DNA from: Brachypterus glaber
Taxonomy: Eukaryota; Arthropoda; Insecta; Coleoptera; Kateretidae
Direction of reading: 5' to 3'
Length of the DNA stretch: 64,000 nt
Assembly (NCBI GenBank): GCA_958510825.1
Contig: OY294045.1
Coordinates: forward strand, 96,036,988 to 96,100,987
The translations under genes and the position numbers were made by a program. Positions within the stretch are counted from its first letter, which is position 1. Each line of letters starts with the position of its first letter. Below, piece after piece: positions 7,843 through 22,075 of this stretch. The notes beneath the pieces are model-generated. The model was not told where the DNA came from. It saw only the letters and a list, made by a program, of their open reading frames with translations, and made no database searches.

Positions 7843-8042
7843 NNNNNNNNNNNNNNNNNNNNNNNNNNNNNNNNNNNNNNNNNNNNNNNNNNNNNNNNNN
7901 NNNNNNNNNNNNNNNNNNNNNNNNNNNNNNNNNNNNNNNNNNNNNNNNNNNNNNNNNNNNNNNNNNNNNNNNNNNNNNNNNNNNNNNNNNNNNNNNNNNN
8001 NNNNNNNNNNNNNNNNNNNNNNNNNNNNNNNNNNNNNNNNNN
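7843..8042. other. Assembly gap (200 N)
   Basis: Exactly 200 N, likely a fixed-size placeholder. It ends in the (AT)n run that precedes the 5' LTR, so the gap was probably caused by the microsatellite; its true length is unknown. Confidence 0.99.
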
Positions 8043-8059: not shown

Positions 8060-8288
8060 AGTTACATGACCGGAGTCATGCTACTCAGCAACTTATTGTT
8101 TATATAATAAAATGTATATTGTTTTGTCAGCATAGTTTACCTATGTAGCTTTTTACTTTCTTTCAATCAATCTGTAATTATATTGTAACTATTAACATTA
8201 TTTAATAAATTTGTAATTCAATAAAATACTTCAAAAACTTTAAAATAACTTTTAAAAAAACTTCTTACGGCAAGGTTGCAACGTAATT
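8060..8288 (+). repeat. 5' LTR of errantivirus
   Basis: Begins AGTTACATGACCGG and ends CAACGTAATT. It contains an AT-rich TATATAATAAAATG box (about 8100-8114) that could act in promotion and two AATAAA signals (8204-8209, 8220-8225). It matches the 3' LTR except for one A (TTGTAACT here, TTGTAAACT there). Confidence 0.95.
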
Positions 8289-8302
8289 GGCGCAGTCGGC
8301 AG
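8288..8302 (+). promoter_or_regulatory. Primer binding site, tRNA-Ser type
   Basis: TGGCGCAGTCGGCAG directly abuts (and shares one T with) the LTR end. It is complementary to the CCA end and acceptor stem of insect tRNA-Ser, the primer used by the 17.6/297 group; gypsy itself uses tRNA-Lys. The match to tRNA-Ser is from memory of the acceptor stem. Confidence 0.8.
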
Positions 8303-8431
8303 TTTTCACCAATCAATTTAGCATAAAATTGATTCGTTTCGACGATTTGTTGGTGATAGAACCTGGTAGTTTCCAAACAAGAGAAATTACAAAAAAAAAA
8401 AGTTTTCTTCGAGTGTGAGTGCACATCACAG

Positions 8432-8469
8432 ATGAAGGACATCATAGCAGCGACCATTTGCCTGTAAGT
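8432..8469 (+). promoter_or_regulatory. Leader ATG and splice donor for env mRNA
   Basis: An ATG at 8432 opens a very short reading frame with a lysine followed by hydrophobic residues and is interrupted at 8463/8464 by a consensus donor (CCT|GTAAGTA). Joined to the acceptor at 14235/14236 the frame is that of env, so this leader exon would supply the start codon and the first residues of the signal peptide. Env splicing from a leader donor is established for gypsy-group errantiviruses; the exact sites here are inference. Confidence 0.7.
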
Positions 8470-8473
8470 ACCT

Positions 8474-9648
8474 ATGTCATTTAGTGATTGCAGATTCAAT
8501 TTTCAAAATACTTTAATCGATTCTGAGTCCAGTTCCGAGTCCGAAACAAACTCTGAACTAGAACTTACCATAATAGAAACAAATAACCCCATTCCCGAAA
8601 TAAATAATTTAAATTTAAACATGGCTAACGTTCTGAAAGCCGACTACTTGAACATGATCCCTGAATTTAGGGGCGAGTCAGAACTCCTTCCTAGATTCAT
8701 CGATATATGTGAAAAATTAGTCAATAAATTTTATAACCTTAATGACCCGACGGACTTTCAGAATGAGTACCTAATGTCTAGCATTTTGGCTAAAATAAAG
8801 GCGATGCCGCAACTAAAATATCCTCTTGCATTCTGAATAACTGGAATGACTTAAAATTAGCACTCCAGAATACATATAGCGATAAACGCGACGTTTTCAG
8901 CTTGCAATTGGAAATGACAGAGTTAAAGCAAGGGCTCAAACAGTCAGTTTTCGATTTTTACAATAGTATACTTATGCTACTTAACCTTCAGATAGCATAT
9001 TTAACGGTGCATCATGGTAATGCACAAGAGGTCGGAACTTTAACCGCATACTTAAGAAAATACGCCTTAAGGGTTTTATTGAGGGGCCTCCGAGACCCAA
9101 TAGGATCCTTAATGCGAACCAAAAATCCAGAAGATCTGAACTCTGCGTTAAATATGCTAACGAACGATTTTCAATTAGAAATAAATGACCAAATAATTAG
9201 AAATTCTTATAGCCAAAATCCTAGACAAAAGCCAAACTTTAATAATAATCGTAACTTTACACAAGGAAGGCAGCAATTGCCAAATATTAGGCAATTGCAA
9301 CTAACAAATTACCCACAAAATTTCCAGCCAAGGCCAAATGGTTTTAATAATAATAACACAAATACAAACTTTCAAAATCAGCCAGGGCCTAGCTCCAGAA
9401 ATGATGTGTTTAGGCCAAACCCTAATGTAAGGTTACCGAGACCAACTCCAATGAGTGTTTCTACGCGAAACACTAATATGTCCCATGCTAGGCAAAATTT
9501 TAATAATAGAAATAATTCAAATAATCAAATTAGAACGCCTAATTTTCAAACAGAAGAGGTTTTCAACTTGCATAATGCGCCGAAAGTAGAGTTTCCGGAG
9601 GAAAATTTAAATAAAAATCAAGATGACTCATCTTTTTTAGAGAATTGA
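8474..9648 (+). pseudogene. gag: Errantivirus gag, interrupted by one frameshift
   Basis: Structural polyprotein of the particle. The first open part (8474-8836, 120 residues; a second in-frame ATG at 8621 is an equally good start) has the acidic N-terminus and the capsid-like segment around IPEFRGESELLPRFI. The frame stops at 8836, but the reading continues without loss in the next frame from about 8821 to 9648 (NDLKLALQNTY, LRGLRDP), so one indel between about 8800 and 8836 breaks it. The second half ends in a long Asn/Gln/Pro-rich tail (residues about 95-245 of that part). No CCHC zinc knuckle is visible, as is usual in this group. The indel may be a real lesion or an assembly error; given the young LTRs either is possible. 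Confidence 0.85.
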
Positions 9649-12600
9649 GCCTCGGAAAAATAGATATCATGAGTTTAACAAACGAAAAAAGTCAATTGTG
9701 CTATATAATTTACCCAGATTTAAATTTAAAAGTTTTATTAGATAGTGGTAGCACAAAGTCGTTTGTTAAACATGACATCGCAAATAAATTTTTTTCTAGG
9801 AATATTATACATGACCCATTTTTAATATCTAGTGCACACGGTACTTCCTTGGAAAAGTATAGTACAAAGATCCCGTGTGGCAAATTGTTTAAAAATAACA
9901 TTAATCTTAAATTTCATATGTTCAACTTTCATAAACAATTTGACTGTCTACTAGGCTTAGATAACCTAAAGAAATTAAACGCGATTGTCGACCTGCATAA
10001 TGATGTATTAATTACACCATCCCGCAGAATCAAAATTCACTACCTTGAGTTATCTAGTGGGGCCGACAGCATAGTCGTCCCTGCCAAGACAGAACAAATT
10101 ATTAAAATAAATATTAAAAATGTTAAAAACGGTGACGTAATAATTCCTCACATGAAAGCTGGTGATCTAGAAATAATAGAAAGCGTAGCCAGTGTAAAAG
10201 ATTTTTCTACTTATTGTAGTATTGTTAACCCTACAGATAGGGACATTTCTGCTAAAATAAACCCAATAACTGTGCAAATGTTCGACGAATACGAACACCA
10301 CACAGCTTCTAATTTTAATAATATTAATACATATTGCGATAACTCGCCAATTGATCTGTCTAAAATTAAAATAAATCATATGAATGCAGAGGAAAAACAA
10401 GCAATTTTAAATCTTTTAAATGAGTACTCTGATATTTTTCATTCAGAAGGAAAACCCTTAACTTTTACGCATAAAATTAAACATAAAATAGTTACTAAAG
10501 ACGAAATACCAGTGTACACAAAGTCCTATCGTTTTCCAAATGTCCATAAACAAGAGGTAGATAAACAAATTAAAAAAATGTTACAACAAAAAATCATAAG
10601 ACCCTCTTATAGCCCGTGGAGTTCGCCAATTTGGGTGGTCCCCAAGAAAAGTGCCCCTTTTGCTGAACGCAAATGGCGCATAGTAGTTGACTATCGTAAA
10701 TTAAATGAAAAAACTATTGATGACCGATACCCATTGCCGAACATTACGGACTTATTGGACAAGTTGGGACGTTGTTTATACTTTAGTACAATGGATTTAG
10801 CCAGTGGTTATCACCAGCTGGAAATGGCTAGGGAGGATATTCAAAAAACTGCTTTCAGCACAGAAAATGGTCACTATGAATTCCTGCGCATGCCCTTTGG
10901 CCTTAAAACGGCCCCAGCCACATTCCAGAGGGTCATGGACAACCTGTTAAGGGGTATATTAAATAAAAAATGCTGCGTATTTCTTGATGATATCATTTGT
11001 TTTAGTACAAGTTTACAAGAACATATAAACAATCTCAAAGAGATTTTTGATAGATTGCGATCTGCTAATCTTAAATTACAAGTCGATAAATGCGAATTTT
11101 TGCAAAAAGAAGTAGCGTTTTTAGGTCATATAGTGACACCCCAGGGCGTAAAACCGAATCCTGAAAAAATTAAAGCTGTTCAAAACTATCCTATTCCTAA
11201 AACTACACGACAAATTAAGGCTTTTTTGGGACTATTGGGTTATTACCGCAAATTCATAAAAGATTTTGCGAAAATAACTAAACCTATGACTATCTGTCTG
11301 AAAAAGAATCATAAAATTAATATTAAGGACCCCGAGTATGTAAAATGTTTTAACCATTGTAAAAATTTGTTGATTAACCAACCCATACTGCAGTATCCAG
11401 ATTTTAATCAACCCTTCATTCTAACTTGCGACTCTTCTAGTTTTGCTTTAGGTTCGGTGTTGTCACAAGGGAAAATAGGCTCTGATTTGCCAGTAGCTTA
11501 CGCAAGTCGCACCCTTAACGAATCAGAATGTAATCTAAGTACTATCGAAAGGGAACTCCTAGCAATCGTTTGGGCTGTTAAATACTTTAGGCCCTACCTT
11601 TATGGCCGAAAATTTACAATAGTATCTGACCATAAACCCTTGCAGTGGTTGTTCTCCCTTAAAGAACCTAATTCCAAATTATGTAGGTGGCGGTTGTACT
11701 TAGAAGAATATGATTATGAAATTATTTATAAAAAAGGTGTCCTTAATAGTAACGCAGATGCCTTGTCACGCATCGTAATAAACCCAGAAACCGATATTCC
11801 CAAAAATCCCGACCAACTACAAAACCCCACAAACGAACCCCCCCAAATAAAAAAAATCGGTAACGCCACTGACTTAACTTATGCCCAAGTTTTAAGTAAT
11901 AATTACAATAAAAATACTATAAGTAATTCACCTCTACAAAATAACATAAAGTCACGTACGAGTTTCAAAGATAAGGAAGTATCAGATTACGATGACAATA
12001 TATGCGAATCTATTCCCACGTACGAAATAAATTTAAATGAACTTTCAGACGCCGTTTATAAAAATGAAACTCTTCGTCAAATAATTTATAATAACCTTAA
12101 TATAATTAATAATAATGTAAAAATAATCGACAATGATCTATTTAATTGTGACGAGAATATATCTCTTGCTCATTGCGTCTCCCAGTGTTTTAGCATGAAA
12201 AAAGGAATCGCCCGTAATTTCAGGGAAAAATTTAATTGCGTAAACACACTAAAAGCACAAAACAAACCTGTAGGTGAAGTTGCATATTTAAAACTTCCTA
12301 CAAGAAATATTTATTATTTAATTACCAAAAAGATATTTAGGGACAAACCCACCTACACTACTATAATTTCCGCCTTGATAAGCCTCAAAAGATTATGTTT
12401 AGAGCTACAAGATTTTACTGTAGCTATGCCAAAAATTGGATCCGGCCTAGATAACCTAAAATGGGATATCATACTTAATTTAATTAAAATTATATTTCAA
12501 AACTCTAAAATTAAAATACTTATTTACAATATTGACCCACCCCAAAAAGTTGAAATTAACGTCACTAATCACGAAAATAATAAAAGTGCTATTTCCAGCT

Positions 12601-14276
12601 TTATAGAAGAATTCTGCGAAGAGTTGACAAATGACGAACCTGACATTACAGACAATATTAATGAACCCTTATTAGATTATATGCAAAAGTTTAACGACAG
12701 CTTTTCCGCGAATAAAGACTCAGACAATATGTCTATAATTGTTGAAACAGGGGACCTTGACGACTTAGAGCGGGAAGAAAATATTAAGCAAGCGGAACAA
12801 CCTACAGAAACCGATCTTAATACAGTACACTCTAACGCGGAAAACCCAATTATTGGTGTCCCAATAGTAACTTGTCCAGTCAATTATGGCAAAAACCAAA
12901 TTATTCTTTCACTAGTAGAATTTGCCCCTGCAACCCCCTCAATCGTTATCCTCTATAAATCAAAACAAAGAATGCTTGTTCAATTGTCAAAAAATAATTT
13001 TGAACAAGATGTAATAAAAGTTATGAAAGAATATATCGCCCCAAAAATTAAGTATTATGTATTTTTCGAGGATCCAATCTATGAACAATTTTGTGCTGTA
13101 TTACAAACATATTTTAAAAATGGACAAATAAATTTAATTAGGTGTACAAAATACCTTACAGACGTAATAGGGGAGGTAGAAATAAAAGAAATTATAAAAA
13201 ATTTTCACGAGGGAAAAACGAACCACCGGGGAATCGAAGAAACCGAAAAACGTATAAAAGAGTCGTACTATTTTCCGAATCAACGTCGTGTGATTCAAAC
13301 GTACATAAATAACTGTGAAATTTGCCAACTTACGAAATACGACAGAAACCCCCTAAAATTAAAATTTAACTTGACACCGACAGCGACTAGACCATTCCAA
13401 ATTTTACACATGGACAGTATCACCCTAGAAAAATCTAAATTTCTTACAATAATTGACACTTTCTCAAAATATAGTCAAGCGTATAAACTAAGTGCTGCTT
13501 CAAGCATAGAAGTAGTAAATAATCTCATAAAATATTTTACGCACCATTCCATCCCCGAACAAATCGTATCGGATAATGGTGGTGAGTTTAATAGCGGTGT
13601 GTTAAAAGAGTTACTAGAACTCCATAAAATCAAAATCCACTTCATAAGCTCGCAACACCCCGATTCAAATTCTCCAGTAGAAAGATTTCACTCCACCCTA
13701 ATCGAGCACATAAGGTTACTTAATAACCAAGATATTTTTAAGAGCGAGCCAATTGAGATAAAAATAAATTATGCAATATTGGCCTATAATAATACAATAC
13801 ATAGCACTACAAAATTAAAACCTTCAGAAATAATCACAGGACACTTAGGCACAGATTCACCCTTTAACTTAGAATTGAACAAACAATTAATGAATAACTA
13901 TATATTTAACCATAAAGAAAAAACCAAAATTTTATATCAAAAAATAAACAAAGACGCACAAAAGACGAAAGAAAAAATTATTAACAAATTAAATGAAAAA
14001 CGTGAAGATATTCCCAAAAGTATACCCGAAAAAGTATTCGTTAAAAATAAACAAAAACAGTCAAAAACCAAAAATAAATTCAAAAAAGAAAAAATCAAAA
14101 ATATAAACTGGAAATTAAAAACCGCAAAAATTGACCCAACCCATTTTAATACCATAGATAAAATCCACCTTTCGAATATAAAACGCCCTAGAAAAAACAG
14201 TAACTCAAAAACTCAACAAGATTTATCTATTCCAGGTTGCTCACATGCGGACGAGCAGCGGACATCCGCAACATAA
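9627..14276 (+). CDS. pol: Errantivirus Pol: protease, RT, RNase H, macrodomain, integrase
   Basis: Expressed as a -1 extension of gag; there is no ATG at the frame start (first ATG at 9669). Numbering residues from 9645: protease DSGS at 33-36; RT with MDLASGYHQLEMA (about 383) and the catalytic FLDD (446-449); RNase H with D596, E635/E637 and D662 (VSDHKPL); an extra region of about 400 residues (about 715-1180) containing a macrodomain (831-962) and an acidic linker; integrase zinc finger H1188, H1193, C1224, C1227; integrase core D1257, D1310, E1346, which is the exact D,D(35)E spacing; and a basic C-terminal tail. All catalytic residues are present. At 1543 residues it is much longer than the roughly 1,050-1,200 I expect for this group. 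Its 3' end overlaps env by 40 bp. Confidence 0.93.
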   Translation, partial: LIFFRELSLGKIDIMSLTNEKSQLCYIIYPDLNLKVLLDSGSTKSFVKHDIANKFFSRNIIHDPFLISSAHGTSLEKYSTKIPCGKLFKNNINLKFHMFNFHKQFDCLLGLDNLKKLNAIVDLHNDVLITPSRRIKIHYLELSSGADSIVVPAKTEQIIKINIKNVKNGDVIIPHMKAGDLEIIESVASVKDFSTYCSIVNPTDRDISAKINPITVQMFDEYEHHTASNFNNINTYCDNSPIDLSKIKINHMNAEEKQAILNLLNEYSDIFHSEGKPLTFTHKIKHKIVTKDEIPVYTKSYRFPNVHKQEVDKQIKKMLQQKIIRPSYSPWSSPIWVVPKKSAPFAERKWRIVVDYRKLNEKTIDDRYPLPNITDLLDKLGRCLYFSTMDLASGYHQLEMAREDIQKTAFSTENGHYEFLRMPFGLKTAPATFQRVMDNLLRGILNKKCCVFLDDIICFSTSLQEHINNLKEIFDRLRSANLKLQVDKCEFLQKEVAFLGHIVTPQGVKPNPEKIKAVQNYPIPKTTRQIKAFLGLLGYYRKFIKDFAKITKPMTICLKKNHKINIKDPEYVKCFNHCKNLLINQPILQYPDFNQPFILTCDSSSFALGSVLSQGKIGSDLPVAYASRTLNESECNLSTIERELLAIVWAVKYFRPYLYGRKFTIVSDHKPLQWLFSLKEPNSKLCRWRLYLEEYDYEIIYKKGVLNSNADALSRIVINPETDIPKNPDQLQNPTNEPPQIKKIGNATDLTYAQVLSNNYNKNTISNSPLQNNIKSRTSFKDKEVSDYDDNICESIPTYEINLNELSDAVYKNETLRQIIYNNLNIINNNVKIIDNDLFNCDENISLAHCVSQCFSMKKGIARNFREKFNCVNTLKAQNKPVGEVAYLKLPTRNIYYLITKKIFRDKPTYTTIISALISLKRLCLELQDFTVAMPKIGSGLDNLKWDIILNLIKIIFQNSKIKILIYNIDPPQKVEINVTNHENNKSAISSFIEEFCEELTNDEPDITDNINEPLLDYMQKFNDSFSANKDSDNMSIIVETGDLDDLEREENIKQAEQPTETDLNTVHSNAENPIIGVPIVTCPVNYGKNQIILSLVEFAPATPSIVILYKSKQRMLVQLSKNNFEQDVIKVMKEYIAPKIKYYVFFEDPIYEQFCAVLQTYFKNGQINLIRCTKYLTDVIGEVEIKEIIKNFHEGKTNHRGIEETEKRIKESYYFPNQRRVIQTYINNCEICQLTKYDRNPLKLKFNLTPTATRPFQILHMDSITLEKSKFLTIIDTFSKYSQAYKLSAASSIEVVNNLIKYFTHHSIPEQIVSDNGGEFNSGVLKELLELHKIKIHFISSQHPDSNSPVERFHSTLIEHIRLLNNQDIFKSEPIEIKINYAILAYNNTIHSTTKLKPSEIITGHLGTDSPFNLELNKQLMNNYIFNHKEKTKILYQKINKDAQKTKEKIINKLNEKREDIPKSIPEKVFVKNKQKQSKTKNKFKKEKIKNINWKLKTAKIDPTHFNTIDKIHLSNIKRPRKNSNSKTQQDLSIPGCSHADEQRTSAT
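9633..9639 (+). promoter_or_regulatory. Slippery heptamer T TTT TTA for -1 gag-pol frameshift
   Basis: In the gag frame the bases parse as T-TTT-TTA, a canonical X-XXY-YYZ slippery site. The pol frame is -1 relative to gag and is open from 9627, so slippage here enters pol before the gag stop at 9646-9648. No downstream pseudoknot was assessed. Confidence 0.7.
12132..12530 (+). other. TARG1/OARD1-like macrodomain inside Pol
   Basis: Pol residues about 831-962 (DLFN to KILIYN) read as an ADP-ribose-binding macrodomain of the TARG1/OARD1 type. Ordered landmarks: DLF start strand, SLAHCVS, the glycine-containing GIARNF loop, GEVAYLK, the highly characteristic YYLITKK (K895/K896) followed by KPTY, MPKIGSGLDNLKW with D936, and a final KIKILIY strand. 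In human TARG1 a lysine and an aspartate in these two motifs are the catalytic pair that hydrolyses the ADP-ribosyl-glutamate link and also removes ADP-ribose from DNA (established). Both positions appear kept here, so an active hydrolase is plausible (inference). The segment sits in frame, with the same AT-rich codon use as the rest of pol, so capture is not recent. Confidence 0.85.
14222..14236 (+). promoter_or_regulatory. Splice acceptor for env mRNA
   Basis: TTTATCTATTCCAG (AG at 14234-14235) is a pyrimidine-rich acceptor at the start of the env open frame. The env frame has no ATG for its first 230-odd residues, so it requires a spliced leader; phase agrees with the donor at 8463/8464. 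Confidence 0.7.
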
Positions 14277-15904
14277 CAACAAACCTTGGTATCCTTCCTA
14301 TAAATTTGAGCCCTGCAAAATTGCAGCGCACGGACCATACTTTTGTCCACTACTACGAATTACAACCACTTTTCGACCAACTCGAAAAACTTAACTTAGA
14401 ATATAATAGGCTAGATTTACTTAAGATTAACAAAACTTTTTATAGTAGAGAATTAGATAATTATAAGAAAATTATTAACTATACACAGGGAAAAATTTAT
14501 GAAAAAATTAATCATATTAATTTAGGGTATAATGAAAGTTTCACAAGAAACAAACGGGGACTTATTAATGGTTTTGGAACCATAATTAAGGGCATTACAG
14601 GTAATTTAGATGCAAATGACGGTGAAAAAATATACAAAATTTTAACCGACATTCGCAAGAAAAACGATAACTTTCAGTCGCAATTAAATCAACAATACTC
14701 TATTAATCAAAAACTAATACAAAATTTTAATGATACTCTACAAGAAATACAGCATAATGAAAATATTTTAAAAAATAAAATTTTACAATTAAATAACTTC
14801 ATGAACGAAAAAGTTCAGAGCCAAATTTTTATGTTGTTTGCACAAGACCTCCATAACCAAATTTTAATTATATATAATACAATTTTAAATATTCTAACGG
14901 ATATCGAAAACTCGATAACATTTTGTAAGTTGAAAACAATGCACCCTAGCATAATAAAAACAGATGAATTATTCCTCGAAATTAGAAAAATCGCCGAACA
15001 CTATAAAAACCAACTCCCAGTGGAGTTAAAATACGAAAACATTTTAGAACTTGAAAACCTTATTCAAATTAACTGTCAAATTGAGCCTACAAGAATAACA
15101 TATTTTCTATCCCTCCCAATAAATTACGAAACAGATTTTGAATTATACCGCCTCACACCCATCCCTACCCTGTTCAAATCAGAGTTTGTGACGATAATTC
15201 CAAAAACTAAATATTTATTAAAGTCAAAAGAAAATGGATTTGTACCATTGAATGACATTTGTAAAAAGGGCAAAAGGTTTCAATGCGCAAACTATTTGCA
15301 AGCAAGTCAGGATGTGACTTGTGAGAAGAATATTATCCTACAGGAAAACTCACACTCATGCTCGTATATAAAACTTGATATTACCGAAAACCATATGGAA
15401 GTCATCCCGGAAATTAACCAGTTTCTCGGAGTATTTCCCAACGAAGAAAAACTCCACATTAAATGCAACGAAGAAAGCGAAACTAAGTCACTTCAAGGAA
15501 TTTACCTCATAAAAGAAGAAAACTGCGAAATTTTTTTCAAACAAAACAAGCTATTTTTCGAAGAAAAATCATCTGGAAAGCCTGCCCTCGTAAATAATTT
15601 AAACCTTGCCATAGAGGACCGACAAATACAAAATTTAAAAATAAACCTAAAAACGCTGAAATTAAACGAAATTTCGGAAAATGCAGTTATACCAATGGAG
15701 AAAAATCAACAAGATATTTTCACCCCAAGCATCATGACCATTTCCCTCTACGTGGTAATCGTCATGGCGTTAACATATTTTGGACTGAAATTCATCAGAA
15801 GCCGAATCCAGGAGAGAAAGAGAGAACCCATTCCACAGGAAGAGGAACTCCAACCACTCCCCCCCGGACAGAACTTCAACCTCCCAGGGGATGCTTCATT
15901 TTGA
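14236..15904 (+). CDS. env: Errantivirus Env glycoprotein (main exon)
   Basis: About 555 residues are open from 14237, lacking an initiator ATG because the N-terminus is expected from the spliced leader exon. Layout resembles the F-type fusion glycoproteins of errantiviruses and baculoviruses: short SU-like part; a furin-type site RNKR at residues 104-107 directly followed by a Gly-rich hydrophobic fusion-peptide-like stretch; long helical ectodomain with coiled-coil character (about 130-200); several cysteines at 370-430; one transmembrane helix at about 499-520 (YVVIVMALTYFGL); and a 35-residue Pro/Glu-rich cytoplasmic tail. No internal stop. It starts inside the 3' end of pol and ends 9 bp before the 3' LTR. 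Function in membrane fusion is by family. Confidence 0.85.
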
Positions 15905-15913
15905 GGAGGGAGG
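15903..15913 (+). promoter_or_regulatory. Polypurine tract
   Basis: GAGGAGGGAGG directly upstream of the 3' LTR; it overlaps the end of the env stop region and would prime plus-strand DNA synthesis. Confidence 0.85.
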
Positions 15914-16140
15914 AGTTACATGACCGGAGTCATGCTACTCAGCAACTTATTGTTTATATAATAAAATGTATATTGTTTTGTCAGCATAGTTTACCTATGT
16001 AGCTTTTTACTTTCTTTCAATCAATCTGTAATTATATTGTAAACTATTAACATTATTTAATAAATTTGTAATTCAATAAAATACTTCAAAAACTTTAAAA
16101 TAACTTTTAAAAAAACTTCTTACGGCAAGGTTGCAACGTA

Positions 16141-16143
<3 letters not shown>
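15914..16143 (+). repeat. 3' LTR of errantivirus
   Basis: 230 bp, identical by eye to the 5' LTR except one extra A. Ends AATT and is followed by TATA (16144-16147), the second copy of the target duplication. Confidence 0.95.
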
Positions 16144-16213: not shown

Positions 16214-16365
16214 TTATGTTGCACATTAAATCATTAGAATGCACACGCGGGTTTTTGTGGTTATAAATTGCATGTACATGAGCGGTGAGAGTTTTTCTTC
16301 ATCTTCTGCTTCCTTATACTCATATAAGGGCGGATAAATATTTAAATGAAGTTAAATTATATTAA
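16214..16365. repeat. LTR-like direct repeat, left copy (BEL/Pao remnant)
   Basis: Starts TTATGTTGCACATTAAATCA and ends at GTTAAATTATATTAA. It matches 17935-18123 closely but lacks a block of about 37 bp after TTCTGCTTCC that the right copy has. The pair flanks a BEL/Pao integrase frame, so I read them as LTR pieces of that element. Confidence 0.65.
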
Positions 16366-16532: not shown

Positions 16533-17771
16533 TTAATTAGCAATATCTTGCTGCGGCAGTGGACATATTTTGACCACCGGAAGTTTAAAGGTACCAGTAC
16601 TAGTCTGTACAGTGACAACCCGAATAACGCCATCAATACCCGGATGTACCGAGGTAATACGACCAAGAGGCCAGCGGAGCGGGGAAGTTAACTCATTTTT
16701 GAGTAAAACTAACGTGCCTGCCTGAAGCGGTATGGAATCATTAGTCCATTTTAAACGTTGTGAAAGAGTATTTAGATATTCATTTTTATATCTGGACCAA
16801 AAGTCGTGGTGGAGACGCATTAAAAGGTCCCACGGTGTAAGTCGGTTCATAGGAACGGATTGTAAGTCCGGTTCCGGCAAACAAGTTAGTGGATTTAAGG
16901 TCAAAAAGTGACCAGGGGTTAAGGCGCGTAAATCGTTAGGGTCCGCTGAAAAGGCGCAGAGCGGTCTACTATTGAGCACGGTCTCAATTTGAGCTAACAC
17001 AGTGTATAACTCTTCGTATGTAAGTACCTGTTCTCCGATGACTCTGAGTAAGTGCGACTTAACAGATTTAACGCCAGCCTCCCAGATACCCCCAAAATGG
17101 TAGGCTGCTGGGGGGTTGAACTTCCATTCAATCCGCTCCTCTTCAGAGGCATCAGCAAGATATTTAATGACTTGGTTGCTTGCACCCACGTAATTTGTTC
17201 CGCAATCAGAATATAACCTAGAGCATTTACCGCGCCGCGCAGTAAATCTGCGTAAAGCAGCGAGAAAAGCTTCCTTAGAGAGGTCCGAGACCAGTTCTAG
17301 ATGAACGGCCTTTGTGGAGAAGCAAACGAACAGACATATATAGGCTTTGAGCCTTTTTGAGCCTCTATTTCGGCTCATTAAAATAAGAACAGGCCCTGCG
17401 AAGTCGGATCCGACAGCGCCATTAAAAGCTTTAATTTGAGCAACACGTAATGGGGGTAAGTCACCCATCAGTGGTTGAGGCGATTTTGGATCTAACTTCC
17501 AGCACGGTATACATTGATTAATTATTTTTCTTATTGCGCGTTTTGATCCTAATATCCAATAATTTTGAAATAATAAGTATTGCGTAGCTTGAATACCAGT
17601 GTGTAAATGTTTTTTATGAGTATCTAATATTAAAAGATCTACAAGGCGGTTTTTCGAAGGTAATAAAGCAGGGTGCTTTTGTTCCTGACTTCCCACTCTA
17701 AGAATACCTTCTGAATCGACAAAAATATTTAATTTGCGGATATTTTTGGAAATAGGACGATGCGTGTGCAT
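16533..17771 (-). pseudogene. BEL/Pao Pol remnant: integrase plus C-terminal DUF5641-like domain
   Basis: A 412-residue open frame. Residues 52-90 form the integrase zinc finger (HKKHLHTG, CIPC); the core has D123 (GSDFAGP), D189 (LYSDCGTNYVG) and E231 (GGIWEAGVKS), all typical of BEL/Pao. From about 330 the sequence (LKWTNDSIPLQAGTLVLL, RWPLGRI) matches the domain that follows integrase in this superfamily. Gag, protease, RT and RNase H are missing. The apparent ATG (17769-17771) lies inside an inverted fragment of the flanking LTR, so the start is a junction artefact rather than a native initiator. The frame itself has no stops, so the truncation may be fairly recent. Confidence 0.85.
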
Positions 17772-17934: not shown

Positions 17935-18123
17935 TTATGTTGCACATTAAATCATTAGAATGCACACGCGGGTTTTTGTGGTTATAAATTGCACGTACAT
18001 GAGCGGTGAGAGTTTTTCTTCATCTTCTGCTTCCTTTTTCGCCACTAGAGGGCTAAATCAGGCATGCGCACTTATACTCATATAAGCGCGGATAAATATT
18101 TAAATGAAGTTAAATTATATTAA
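17935..18123. repeat. LTR-like direct repeat, right copy
   Basis: Matches the left copy at 16214-16365, with an extra block (TTTTTCGCCACTAGAGGG and following) of about 37 bp. Sequence after 18123 (ACTAGTATACATTACTGACA) is not shared with the left copy. Confidence 0.65.
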
Positions 18124-19315: not shown

Positions 19316-22075
19316 GGTATTAACTATAATTTATTAGATAAAACAAATATTGATGTAAATAATTATATAAATACACTAAACCAAAATATGATGTTCTCTT
19401 ATATAGACATACCAACTAGAAAAGACGGTATAAACTCATCTTTAATTGATCATTTTTTTGTAGGTGTAAAAAGCTCCAGTTTAAAAACTTAATTTTAAAG
19501 GGTTCGTACTTGAAAGTGCCATAAGTGATCATTACGGTATTTTTCTCAAAATAAAATCTCAAGAAAATTATAACAAAAAAAAACAATTATCTACCTCTTA
19601 AACAAGAATTCAAAAAAATAAACTATGAAAGCTTAAATAAGGACCTTAGTACAGAAACATGGGCATACATTTTACAAGAAGATGACCCAGAAATTGCATA
19701 CAATACTTTTTTAAAAAAGTTACAGTATTATTTTGACAAAAACACAAAAACAAACCAAACTAAAAGAAATAATATAAAACTGAAACCTTGGATCACAGTA
19801 GGTTTAATAAACTCAATAAAATATAGAGATAACTTAAAAAAAGAATTGATAAAAAACTATAATGAAGTGCGGCATAATGAATTCAAAATTTATAGAAATT
19901 ATTTAAATAAATTATTAAATAAAACTAAACAAGTGTATTATAAAAATGAATTAATTAATGTAAAAAATGATTATAAAAAAACCTGGCAAGTAATAAATAA
20001 CGCCTCAAATATTCAGAAAAAAAATAAAACACAGAATTTTAATATTGTAAATGAACAGAATGAAAAGGTTACATCAAATAAGAGTATAGCTGACTATTTT
20101 AATATTTTTTTTAACAAAATAGGTGAAAATATGGTAAAAAATATAAAACCTAACAAAAATAAAAATAAATTCAAAAACACAAACATTGCTAAAAAATCGT
20201 TATTTTTAAATCCAATTGATCAAACGGAAATAGTTGGTTATATATCAAATTTAAAAACGAAATCTGCATGCGGTTCTGATGGCATCTCCACTAAAACCAT
20301 AAAAAATATTCACAATTATATTATAGCACCACTACTTCATATTTTTAATTTAATACTTTTAAATGGCAATATACCAACAGCAATGAAAGATTCTATTATA
20401 ACTCCTGTTTTTAAATCCGGTGATAAATCAAAGACTACAAATTATAGGCCAATATCAGTTATTAACAATTTTGCGAAACTTTTAGAACAATGTATTAAAA
20501 CTCGGCTTATGAACTTTTTATTAAAAACAAAATTACTTAGTAAAGACCAATATGGGTTTCAGAAAAATATAAGTACTCAAGATGCATTAATAGAATTTAA
20601 CAAAATAATCATTGAAAATCTAAATAAAAACAAAAAAATTTTAGCAGTTTTTCTCGATTTGGCAAAAGCCTTTGACACTGTTGACCACAGCTTACTTATT
20701 AATAGATTGGAATCAATTGGTGTTAGAGGCATTGCCTTAGAACTTTTTAAAAACTATTTGGAAAATCGACAACAAAAAACTAAAATTAATAAAATATTAA
20801 GCGAGCCATTGTTAGTTACTAGAGGTGTGCCCCAAGGAACAGTACTCGGGCCAATTTTATTCCTTGTATATATAAATAGTATCTACAATATCTCCCTGGA
20901 TAGATTTATAATATCATATGCGGACGACACTACAGTGATTTTTGTTGACAACTCATGGATAAATGTCTTTAAAAAAGCGGAAATTGGTATGTCTAAATTA
21001 AACGAATGGCTTGATTATAGCTTACTAAGTCTTAACGTTGAAAAAACAAAATTTGTGACCTTTTCTATTTCAGCTGCTGATCAACCTGACCTCGATATTT
21101 TAAAAATACACGAAGAAAATTGTCAAACGCAAAACTGCGATTGTAAAAATATTACAAAAACCACAAAAATTAAATATCTTGGTTTAATAGTGGATCAGCA
21201 TCTTAAATGGTCAGATCACATTCAATATCTTAAAACAAAACTTAGAAAATGTATGTATGCATTCTATCAATTAAGAGATATTCTTAGTAGTAAACTTTTA
21301 AAAATAGTCTATGATGCCTTAATCGAATCACTTTTAAGGTACTGTATTTTAATATGGGGGGGTCTGTACGACAATTTATTACATGAACTGGATATTACAC
21401 AAAACACTTTAATAAAAATTCTATTTAAAAAATCTAGAAAATTTAGTACAGATGCGCTATATTCTGAGCTTGATATTTTTTCCATTAGAAACCTGTATGC
21501 CTACGAAACATTACTATGGGTATGCCAAAACCAAAATAAATCTTCTAAACCAGAACACAATATAAAAACAAGATTTGTAAAAAATGATTCTTTATTAACA
21601 CCTAGATTCAATAAGTCTCATATTCAAAGGTCTCTATTTTTCTTCGCCCCAAAACTGTTTAATATGCTGCCAAAGGAAATAAAAAATTTAAACTCGAAAT
21701 CGCTGCTAAAAAAAAAAATTAAAATTTTTATCAAAAAAAACTCCACAAAGATTAAAAATGTCCTTAAAAACCCAGGTAATTAAATATAAATAAATCACTC
21801 TCATCTTTTTTTTGTCTCAATTAAGTTAAATGGTCTATTTTAGTTTAAGATTAGCAATTAGTTAATTTAGTTTAAGATTGGTTATTAATATATTATAGTT
21901 TTTTAATTAAAATTTAAATAAGTAAGTAAAAAAATAAGCTGTTAGTACTTACTTAGATATCTGCAAAACAAGCTGAATAAGCTTAGGCGGATTTAAACTT
22001 AAAATTGTAAAAAAAAAAAAATGTATTGTTTAAATAACAATAAATAAATTGAAAAATAAATAAATTGAATTTAGT
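19316..22075 (+). mobile_element. 5'-truncated non-LTR retrotransposon with long RT ORF
   Basis: Starts inside the apurinic endonuclease domain (about 19318: INYNLLDKTN; SSLIDHFFVG near 19445; SDHYGIF near 19530), continues through the RT and ends in a 290 bp 3' UTR with a poly-A run (22010-22021) and AAATAAATTG tail. Two frameshifts affect the endonuclease part: near 19490, and at the A9 run at about 19575. The clade looks CR1/Jockey-like (endonuclease plus RT, no RNase H); I cannot assign it further. Confidence 0.85.
19591..21783 (+). CDS. Non-LTR reverse transcriptase domain (ORF2 part)
   Basis: Open from the frame entry near 19591 (no native ATG; the 645-residue numbering below starts at 19846). 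RT landmarks in order: SACGSDGIS (140-148), NYRPISVINNFAKLLEQ (199-215), DQYGFQK (234-240), FLDLAKAFDTVDH with catalytic D271, RGVPQGTVLGPILFLVYIN (about 326-344), and YADD at 358-361. The C-terminal thumb contains ILIWGGLYDNLL and LFNMLPKEIK. All catalytic aspartates are present and there is no stop in more than 700 codons, so the RT part is recent. Because the endonuclease is broken and the 5' end missing, the copy is not autonomous. Confidence 0.85.
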   Translation, partial: LPLKQEFKKINYESLNKDLSTETWAYILQEDDPEIAYNTFLKKLQYYFDKNTKTNQTKRNNIKLKPWITVGLINSIKYRDNLKKELIKNYNEVRHNEFKIYRNYLNKLLNKTKQVYYKNELINVKNDYKKTWQVINNASNIQKKNKTQNFNIVNEQNEKVTSNKSIADYFNIFFNKIGENMVKNIKPNKNKNKFKNTNIAKKSLFLNPIDQTEIVGYISNLKTKSACGSDGISTKTIKNIHNYIIAPLLHIFNLILLNGNIPTAMKDSIITPVFKSGDKSKTTNYRPISVINNFAKLLEQCIKTRLMNFLLKTKLLSKDQYGFQKNISTQDALIEFNKIIIENLNKNKKILAVFLDLAKAFDTVDHSLLINRLESIGVRGIALELFKNYLENRQQKTKINKILSEPLLVTRGVPQGTVLGPILFLVYINSIYNISLDRFIISYADDTTVIFVDNSWINVFKKAEIGMSKLNEWLDYSLLSLNVEKTKFVTFSISAADQPDLDILKIHEENCQTQNCDCKNITKTTKIKYLGLIVDQHLKWSDHIQYLKTKLRKCMYAFYQLRDILSSKLLKIVYDALIESLLRYCILIWGGLYDNLLHELDITQNTLIKILFKKSRKFSTDALYSELDIFSIRNLYAYETLLWVCQNQNKSSKPEHNIKTRFVKNDSLLTPRFNKSHIQRSLFFFAPKLFNMLPKEIKNLNSKSLLKKKIKIFIKKNSTKIKNVLKNPGN

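Follow-up and report, generated by a model that had tools for sequence, protein, structure and literature searches.

RESULTS

An env-bearing errantivirus with an extra domain in its Pol

The window, by which we mean the whole 64,000-nucleotide stretch of Brachypterus glaber DNA that was analyzed, contains on its plus strand an LTR element at positions 8060-16143, in which paired LTRs enclose gag, Pol, and env open reading frames (ORFs). The 5′ LTR (8060-8288), which starts with AGTTAC, and the 3′ LTR (15914-16143) form a direct repeat, 229 and 230 bp long and identical except for a single 1-nt indel, as young as the initial annotation had described them. By eye, a probable primer binding site, TGGCGCAGTCGGCAG (8288-8302), adjoins the 5′ LTR and is presumably of the tRNA type, and a polypurine tract (15900-15913) lies immediately 5′ of the 3′ LTR. 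The gag region (8474-9648), assigned by position, is divided in this copy over two ORFs in differing frames (8474-8836 and 8902-9648) and gave no meaningful match in a Pfam search. It is followed by an unbroken Pol ORF of 1543 amino acids (9645-14276) and by an env ORF of 555 amino acids (14237-15904), whose translation, read by eye, shows a cleavage-like RNKR followed by GLINGFG (from about 14546), as well as a membrane span at the C-terminus; the Pfam family Baculo_F did not match this env ORF and did match the related database protein P0146.

Within the Pol ORF, Pfam located an aspartyl protease (RVP_2, PF08284, E 5e-5; 9723-10007), a reverse transcriptase in two adjoining pieces (PF00078; 10638-11135), an RNase H (PF17917, E 1.3e-37; 11400-11711), and an integrase (13179-13661) composed of an H2C2 zinc-binding part (PF17921; 13179-13340) and a core (PF00665; 13386-13661). 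The paired LTRs, the primer binding site and polypurine tract, this domain order, and the relationship of the reverse transcriptase and RNase H to those of errantiviruses support the assignment of the element to the env-bearing errantiviruses (Metaviridae), the context in which the macrodomain had initially been placed. LTRs, the gag-pol-env layout, and the same Pol order are shared with errantiviruses such as that of the Tribolium Pol P0115, named after transposon 297, and the RNase H region is up to 81% identical to that of database Pols; among the matches listed, all nearest Pols with an organism name are from insects. The window Pol differs from most of these in carrying an additional macrodomain of about 140 amino acids in frame between RNase H and integrase (12111-12530), the place that had been proposed for it: among the best 120 of 5431 database Pols, some of them partial proteins, only P0048, P0105, and P0114 have one and 117 do not, so that errantiviruses in general do without it. 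The best-scoring database Pol, P0045, which accounts for the 81% identity in the RNase H region, is among those without. Between macrodomain and integrase lie an acidic, poorly conserved linker (12531-12863), with between-family identity below that of the adjoining domains and mostly low pLDDT, and a pre-integrase domain common to related errantivirus Pols (12864-13151; AF2 secondary structure, pLDDT 86-98 per block).

The surroundings hold further features. A run of 200 N (7843-8042), which stops 17 bases 5′ of the 5′ LTR, is probably an assembly gap that makes the left flank of the element uncertain. On the minus strand, we noted an integrase with DUF5641 (16533-17771), which we take to be Pao-like, as well as an RNase H with zf-RVT (2112-2939), and on the plus strand a reverse transcriptase, perhaps of non-LTR type (19846-21783). 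The DUF5641 integrase ORF is flanked by a 66-nt direct repeat, 98% identical (16214-16279 and 17935-18000), whose second copy touches the edge of the searched stretch and may be longer.

The domain belongs to the TARG1 class

It is virtually certain that the extra domain is a TARG1/OARD1-type macrodomain, as the initial annotation had read it from short motifs. A phmmer search matched it to 4j5r with an E value of 1.1e-29, and an AF2 model gave a macrodomain fold that fold searches matched to TARG1 at about 1 Å and 40-43% identity; these two lines of evidence rule out a chance motif match. Aligned with 4j5r, the domain is ungapped over 140 residues, and the catalytic residues Lys84 and Asp125 of TARG1 are both present (codons at 12327-12329 and 12450-12452), which confirmed the catalytic pair proposed beforehand. 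Both residues are unchanged in 33/33 rows of LTR elements (8 from the database and 25, among them near-identical ones, from the host), in 5/5 rows from other fusions, and in all 32 short ORFs, counts that are not independent because the rows are partly redundant. We consider it likely that the domain is an active ADP-ribosylhydrolase.

In sequence, the domain is nearer to TARG1 (C6orf130; a hydrolase of the ALC1-like class) than to other macrodomain classes. Its PDB matches up to E 0.1 were five OARD1 chains and one DarG-type chain, and its best NCBIfam match was DarG, far under the cut-off of that family. The DarG macrodomain, antitoxin of the bacterial DarTG toxin-antitoxin pair, is 20-25% identical to it, and the RNA-virus macrodomains of alphavirus nsP3 and rubella p150 about 10-16%; the latter two we take to be of a MacroD-like class, whose catalytic residues differ. 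TARG1 is a cellular protein, whereas the window domain sits inside a retroelement polyprotein, and its hydrolase activity is a prediction.

Many element families of the host carry the macrodomain

In the host assembly (648 Mb), we found at least 151 macrodomain matches (best 150 of 602 candidates scored). Among the matches listed, 42, counting the copy in the window itself, match the window domain at 100% identity, and 21 of these lie within a 1549-aa open frame; the remaining listed copies range from 99 down to 56% identity, and several of the copies that were read are frame-broken. Given LTRs that differ by a single indel and the 42 identical domains, the window family is very young. Searching the genome with a different relative, the short and free-standing P0018, gave matches of 46-52% identity (best 150 of 573 candidates), many of which lie in open frames 400-1614 aa long, with further frame lengths appearing as well. 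No cellular OARD1 of the host, against which the capture might be dated, was distinguishable among the retroelement matches in these best 150 of 573, as an intron-split gene would be swamped by them. We chose 15 representatives, which make up 14 groups less than 85% identical to one another; F8 and F13 share 97% identity. Starting from RNase H instead (best 150 of 2413 first-look candidates scored, a sample that leans to high RNase H scores), we found a macrodomain in 21 of the best 30 loci (>60 bits, within 3.3 kb), a macrodomain fragment in two more (L146 and L155), and none in seven, a count that misses C-terminal macrodomains as the stretches span 3.3 kb. Related elements sharing the domain, the existence of which the initial annotation had left to be checked, are thus present in the host in many families.

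The macrodomain is under purifying selection

Across the representatives, the macrodomain dN/dS has a median of 0.19 and a range of 0.09-0.46, well below 1, and we conclude that the domain is under purifying selection; 66 of 105 pairs were usable, the other 39 being dropped for saturated or undefined dS, and most dS values are saturated. Medians elsewhere in Pol are 0.20 for RNase H (9/55 pairs), 0.29 for the pre-integrase domain (23/28), and 0.28 for integrase (50/91). Between the window family and F2 (L013), with dS above 1 throughout, the ratio is 0.09 for the macrodomain, 0.03 for reverse transcriptase and RNase H, 0.02 for integrase, and 0.04 for the pre-integrase domain, compared to 0.35 and 0.14 for the linkers before and after the macrodomain. 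For the macrodomain alone, we obtained 0.10 for F1/F2 (dS 1.6), 0.25 for the window against L023, 0.24-0.25 for the window against L011 and L012, two decayed copies of its own family, 0.16 for F11/F16, the least saturated between-group pair (dN 0.10, dS 0.62), and 0.46, from very few changes, for the near-identical pair F8/F13. Median identity is highest for RNase H (0.63; 11 representatives), ahead of the macrodomain (0.53; 15), integrase (0.47; 14), and the pre-integrase domain (0.32; 8), a rough comparison given the differing sequence sets.

These data bear on whether the domain does anything for the element. A host OARD1 captured by chance into a tolerant linker, persisting only through the youth of its copies, would match the very young window family with its LTRs one indel apart and its 42 identical domains among the matches listed, but it would not be expected to yield fourteen diverged groups with open frame, catalytic dyad, and dN/dS well below 1, nor a domain conserved like integrase and above the linkers that adjoin it. 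Together with the host-wide spread, the placement described below, and the 21 of the best 30 RNase H loci, this renders a mere passenger very improbable. The retained function suggested in the initial annotation gains indirect support from the many families, the selection, and the dyad in 33/33 partly redundant rows, while the single-element setting in which it had been framed did not hold.

The macrodomain flanks integrase

We mapped profiles of RNase H, macrodomain, pre-integrase domain, and integrase on 43 host loci, corresponding to 40 places, that were picked from the match lists so as to represent the identity groups. In 33/40 places, the macrodomain precedes integrase; in two of these (L012 and L125), it follows RNase H with no integrase match seen. 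In the other 7/40, it comes after integrase, at the Pol C-terminus. Hence it flanks integrase in 38/38 places with an integrase match. Both insertion regions may be merely tolerant sites, and placement alone says little.

The C-terminal position invites comparison with the chromodomain that ends chromovirus integrases and is believed to meet chromatin: the macrodomain could be a reader rather than an eraser, binding ADP-ribose on chromatin and guiding integrase to ADP-ribosylated sites. The seven C-terminal cases agree with such a role, as does the database protein P0003, in which the order integrase-chromodomain-macrodomain is followed in one frame by an env-like part. A reader would not, however, obviously need both catalytic residues, which are present in every row, and the upstream position in 33 of the 40 places is not the one that this analogy suggests. 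We regard a reader as quite unlikely. The membrane-protein-like part of P0003 has a weak match to a rhabdovirus fusion domain.

The module has apparently moved between Pol backbones or been captured repeatedly

For one set of 14 Pols, the macrodomain tree and the reverse transcriptase/RNase H tree are in mutual conflict, each rejecting the other (p-AU 8.8e-43 and 3.3e-6). The macrodomain of F8 is C-terminal, as is that of F9, and the two cluster (support 96 and 99), while the reverse transcriptase/RNase H of F8 joins F2 and the window family (support 100), whose macrodomains precede integrase. Likewise, P0048 has a Pol close to that of the window and a macrodomain that clusters with those of P0105 and P0007 (support 77-99) and, by eye, occupies a different linker place. 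Furthermore, a short upstream segment of the type NNLNIENNNVKII is common to macrodomains on distant host Pols (window, L013, L021, L023, L024, and L120); it is absent from L118, L119, and L125. Taken together, the tree conflict, the F8 and P0048 cases, and the shared segment indicate, at the level of sequence, that the module is shuffled between Pol backbones or captured repeatedly. Since many nodes of the macrodomain tree are weak (several of 22-55%), we claim the tree conflict alone and leave the independent captures uncounted. The initial picture of one capture in one element thereby gave way to a widespread, shuffled module that is also located after integrase; a one-off capture is disfavored by the at least 151 host matches, the many placements, the selection, and the 21/30 RNase H loci.

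Macrodomains in other proteins

Ten database proteins with a macrodomain were found within the length range searched. RNase H is followed by the macrodomain in P0004, P0005, and P0007, with P0005 ending after it and P0007 continuing directly into integrase, and P0006, from the sawfly Athalia rosae, comprises the end of an RNase H, the macrodomain, and integrase. In P0009 and P0010, a TARG1-type macrodomain has an ATP-dependent DNA ligase part on one side and a LIG3-type BRCT domain on the other, fusions that constitute a natural link of TARG1 chemistry to DNA-end joining and fit work on DNA ends.

Proteins of other kinds were observed as well. P0011 (1486 aa, on a 5.8-kb contig) has a macrodomain at residues 1098-1239 (E 4e-29 to human TARG1) and, by eye, RdRp-like motifs, with no significant Pfam match; it may represent an RNA virus that carries a macrodomain of the TARG1 class. 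P0008 and P0012 resemble non-LTR ORF1s by eye, one having a GDSL esterase match and one a zinc-knuckle-like end, which suggests a putative capture by LINEs too. In IMG/VR, 110 of 219 stretches encode macrodomain relatives, the 80 retained (L035-L114) being 27-42% identical, on contigs of 4-249 kb, many over 100 kb.

Some RNA-virus macrodomains are thought to counter antiviral ADP-ribosylation, and the errantivirus domain could be a general counter of that kind, opposing the modification of Gag, RNA, or host signaling proteins in the cytoplasm, with its place in Pol incidental. The retained dyad is compatible with this, as are the relatives in the RdRp-like P0011 and the ORF1-like P0012 and P0008 (by eye), three proteins that lack an integrase match. 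The restriction of the finds to the TARG1 class does not count against it, the query itself being TARG1-class. TARG1, moreover, also acts on Asp/Glu esters of proteins (PMC7050489). A general counter does not require, however, that the LTR-element macrodomain adjoin integrase wherever integrase is seen, and we deem it possible but rather unlikely.

A decayed second macrodomain and the pre-integrase domain

Just 5′ of integrase, the host loci L024, L120, and L124 show a second, weak macrodomain match (12-15 bits), and so does P0006 from Athalia rosae just before its integrase (8.9 bits, residues about 390-520). Compared with the macrodomain profile, the L024/L120 slot and the P0006 slot gave P about 1e-5, with 0/100 column-shuffled decoys as good. 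As judged by eye, these slots have lost the glycine loop and Asp125, while the lysine may persist. We read these four as tandems of an intact macrodomain and a decayed one. The corresponding slots of the L118 group (P 0.051, 2/100 decoys as good) and the L119 group (P 0.14, 31/100) were not recognizable as macrodomains against the same profile.

The pre-integrase domain of the window type shares this slot, and its predicted elements (E-E-E-E-H-E-H-E, AF2) follow the macrodomain order minus the first two helices. Against the macrodomain profile, however, the canonical pre-integrase domain gave P 0.085 with 11/100 decoys as good, and the reversed control reached 21.8 vs 14.8 for the real sequence; in a fold search with its model, the rows listed were filled by integrase, with macrodomains absent among them. 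A macrodomain origin of the pre-integrase domain is an idea, and the homology is unproven.

DISCUSSION

We lean, by a little, toward the errantivirus macrodomain being an active eraser that travels with reverse transcriptase and integrase and removes ADP-ribose from the element's DNA or from proteins of the complex. Being made within Pol, the domain would be packaged alongside these enzymes and would remain with the reverse-transcription and pre-integration complex, where Lys84-Asp125 chemistry could strip ADP-ribose from thymidines of single-stranded cDNA or from phosphorylated ends, and/or from acidic residues of complex proteins. Such removal would reverse a host PARP-type modification that otherwise hinders reverse transcription, end processing, or integration. 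What favors an active eraser is the dyad, the selection, the place beside integrase, the DNA-ligase fusions, and the known work of TARG1 on DNA. Whether it would act during cDNA synthesis and integration, rather than elsewhere, appears evenly balanced to us. Catalysis, packaging, substrate, and benefit, like the target itself (host ADP-ribosylation or DNA), are what we infer.

Host PARP pressure on the elements is weakly supported by work on parp-1 mutant Drosophila, which reports 8 significantly changed mobile elements, 5 up and 3 down, as well as ten more elements (nine of the gypsy superfamily) that went up below the authors' thresholds; the authors allow for an indirect cause (PMC7712786).

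TARG1 and errantiviruses are each known, and it is their combination, its spread, and its shuffling that look new. Lentiviruses place a dUTPase between RNase H and integrase. Some elements carry extra domains at one of several Pol positions, such as a chromodomain and a DnaQ-like exonuclease (PMC6338049) or, in giant transposons, an accessory dUTPase (PMC6431247), which resemble the macrodomain in being additions and differ from it in fold and chemistry; term look-ups in both papers gave no macrodomain. Among the open-access literature matches listed, a scope outside which Repbase and Chary and Hayashi 2025 lie, no LTR element, errantiviruses included, was described as having a macrodomain. 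Judged by topic, the nearest recent work is that of Chary and Hayashi (eLife) on metazoan errantiviruses.

A farther-reaching reading, which we offer tentatively and think improbable as a whole, is that a TARG1-class hydrolase may belong, as a regular and interchangeable component, to the integration machinery of a large insect Gypsy/errantivirus group, acquired more than once and acting on ADP-ribosylated cDNA or intasome proteins, and that the conserved pre-integrase domain may be an eroded older macrodomain, which would set this coupling deep in errantivirus history.

ADP-ribosylation serves as a signal in antiviral defense and in DNA damage, and RNA viruses are known to possess macrodomain erasers. 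In the case described here, many element families of a single genome have retained such a predicted eraser, which has also moved and may have been acquired anew; this suggests that macrodomain-bearing elements undo ADP-ribosylation while replicating. The retention of the eraser suggests that ADP-ribosylation acts as a pressure on the replication of LTR retroelements in insects, and the macrodomain-bearing and macrodomain-free families of one host would offer a natural comparison for ADP-ribosylation of retroelement DNA or of the integration complex in vivo.
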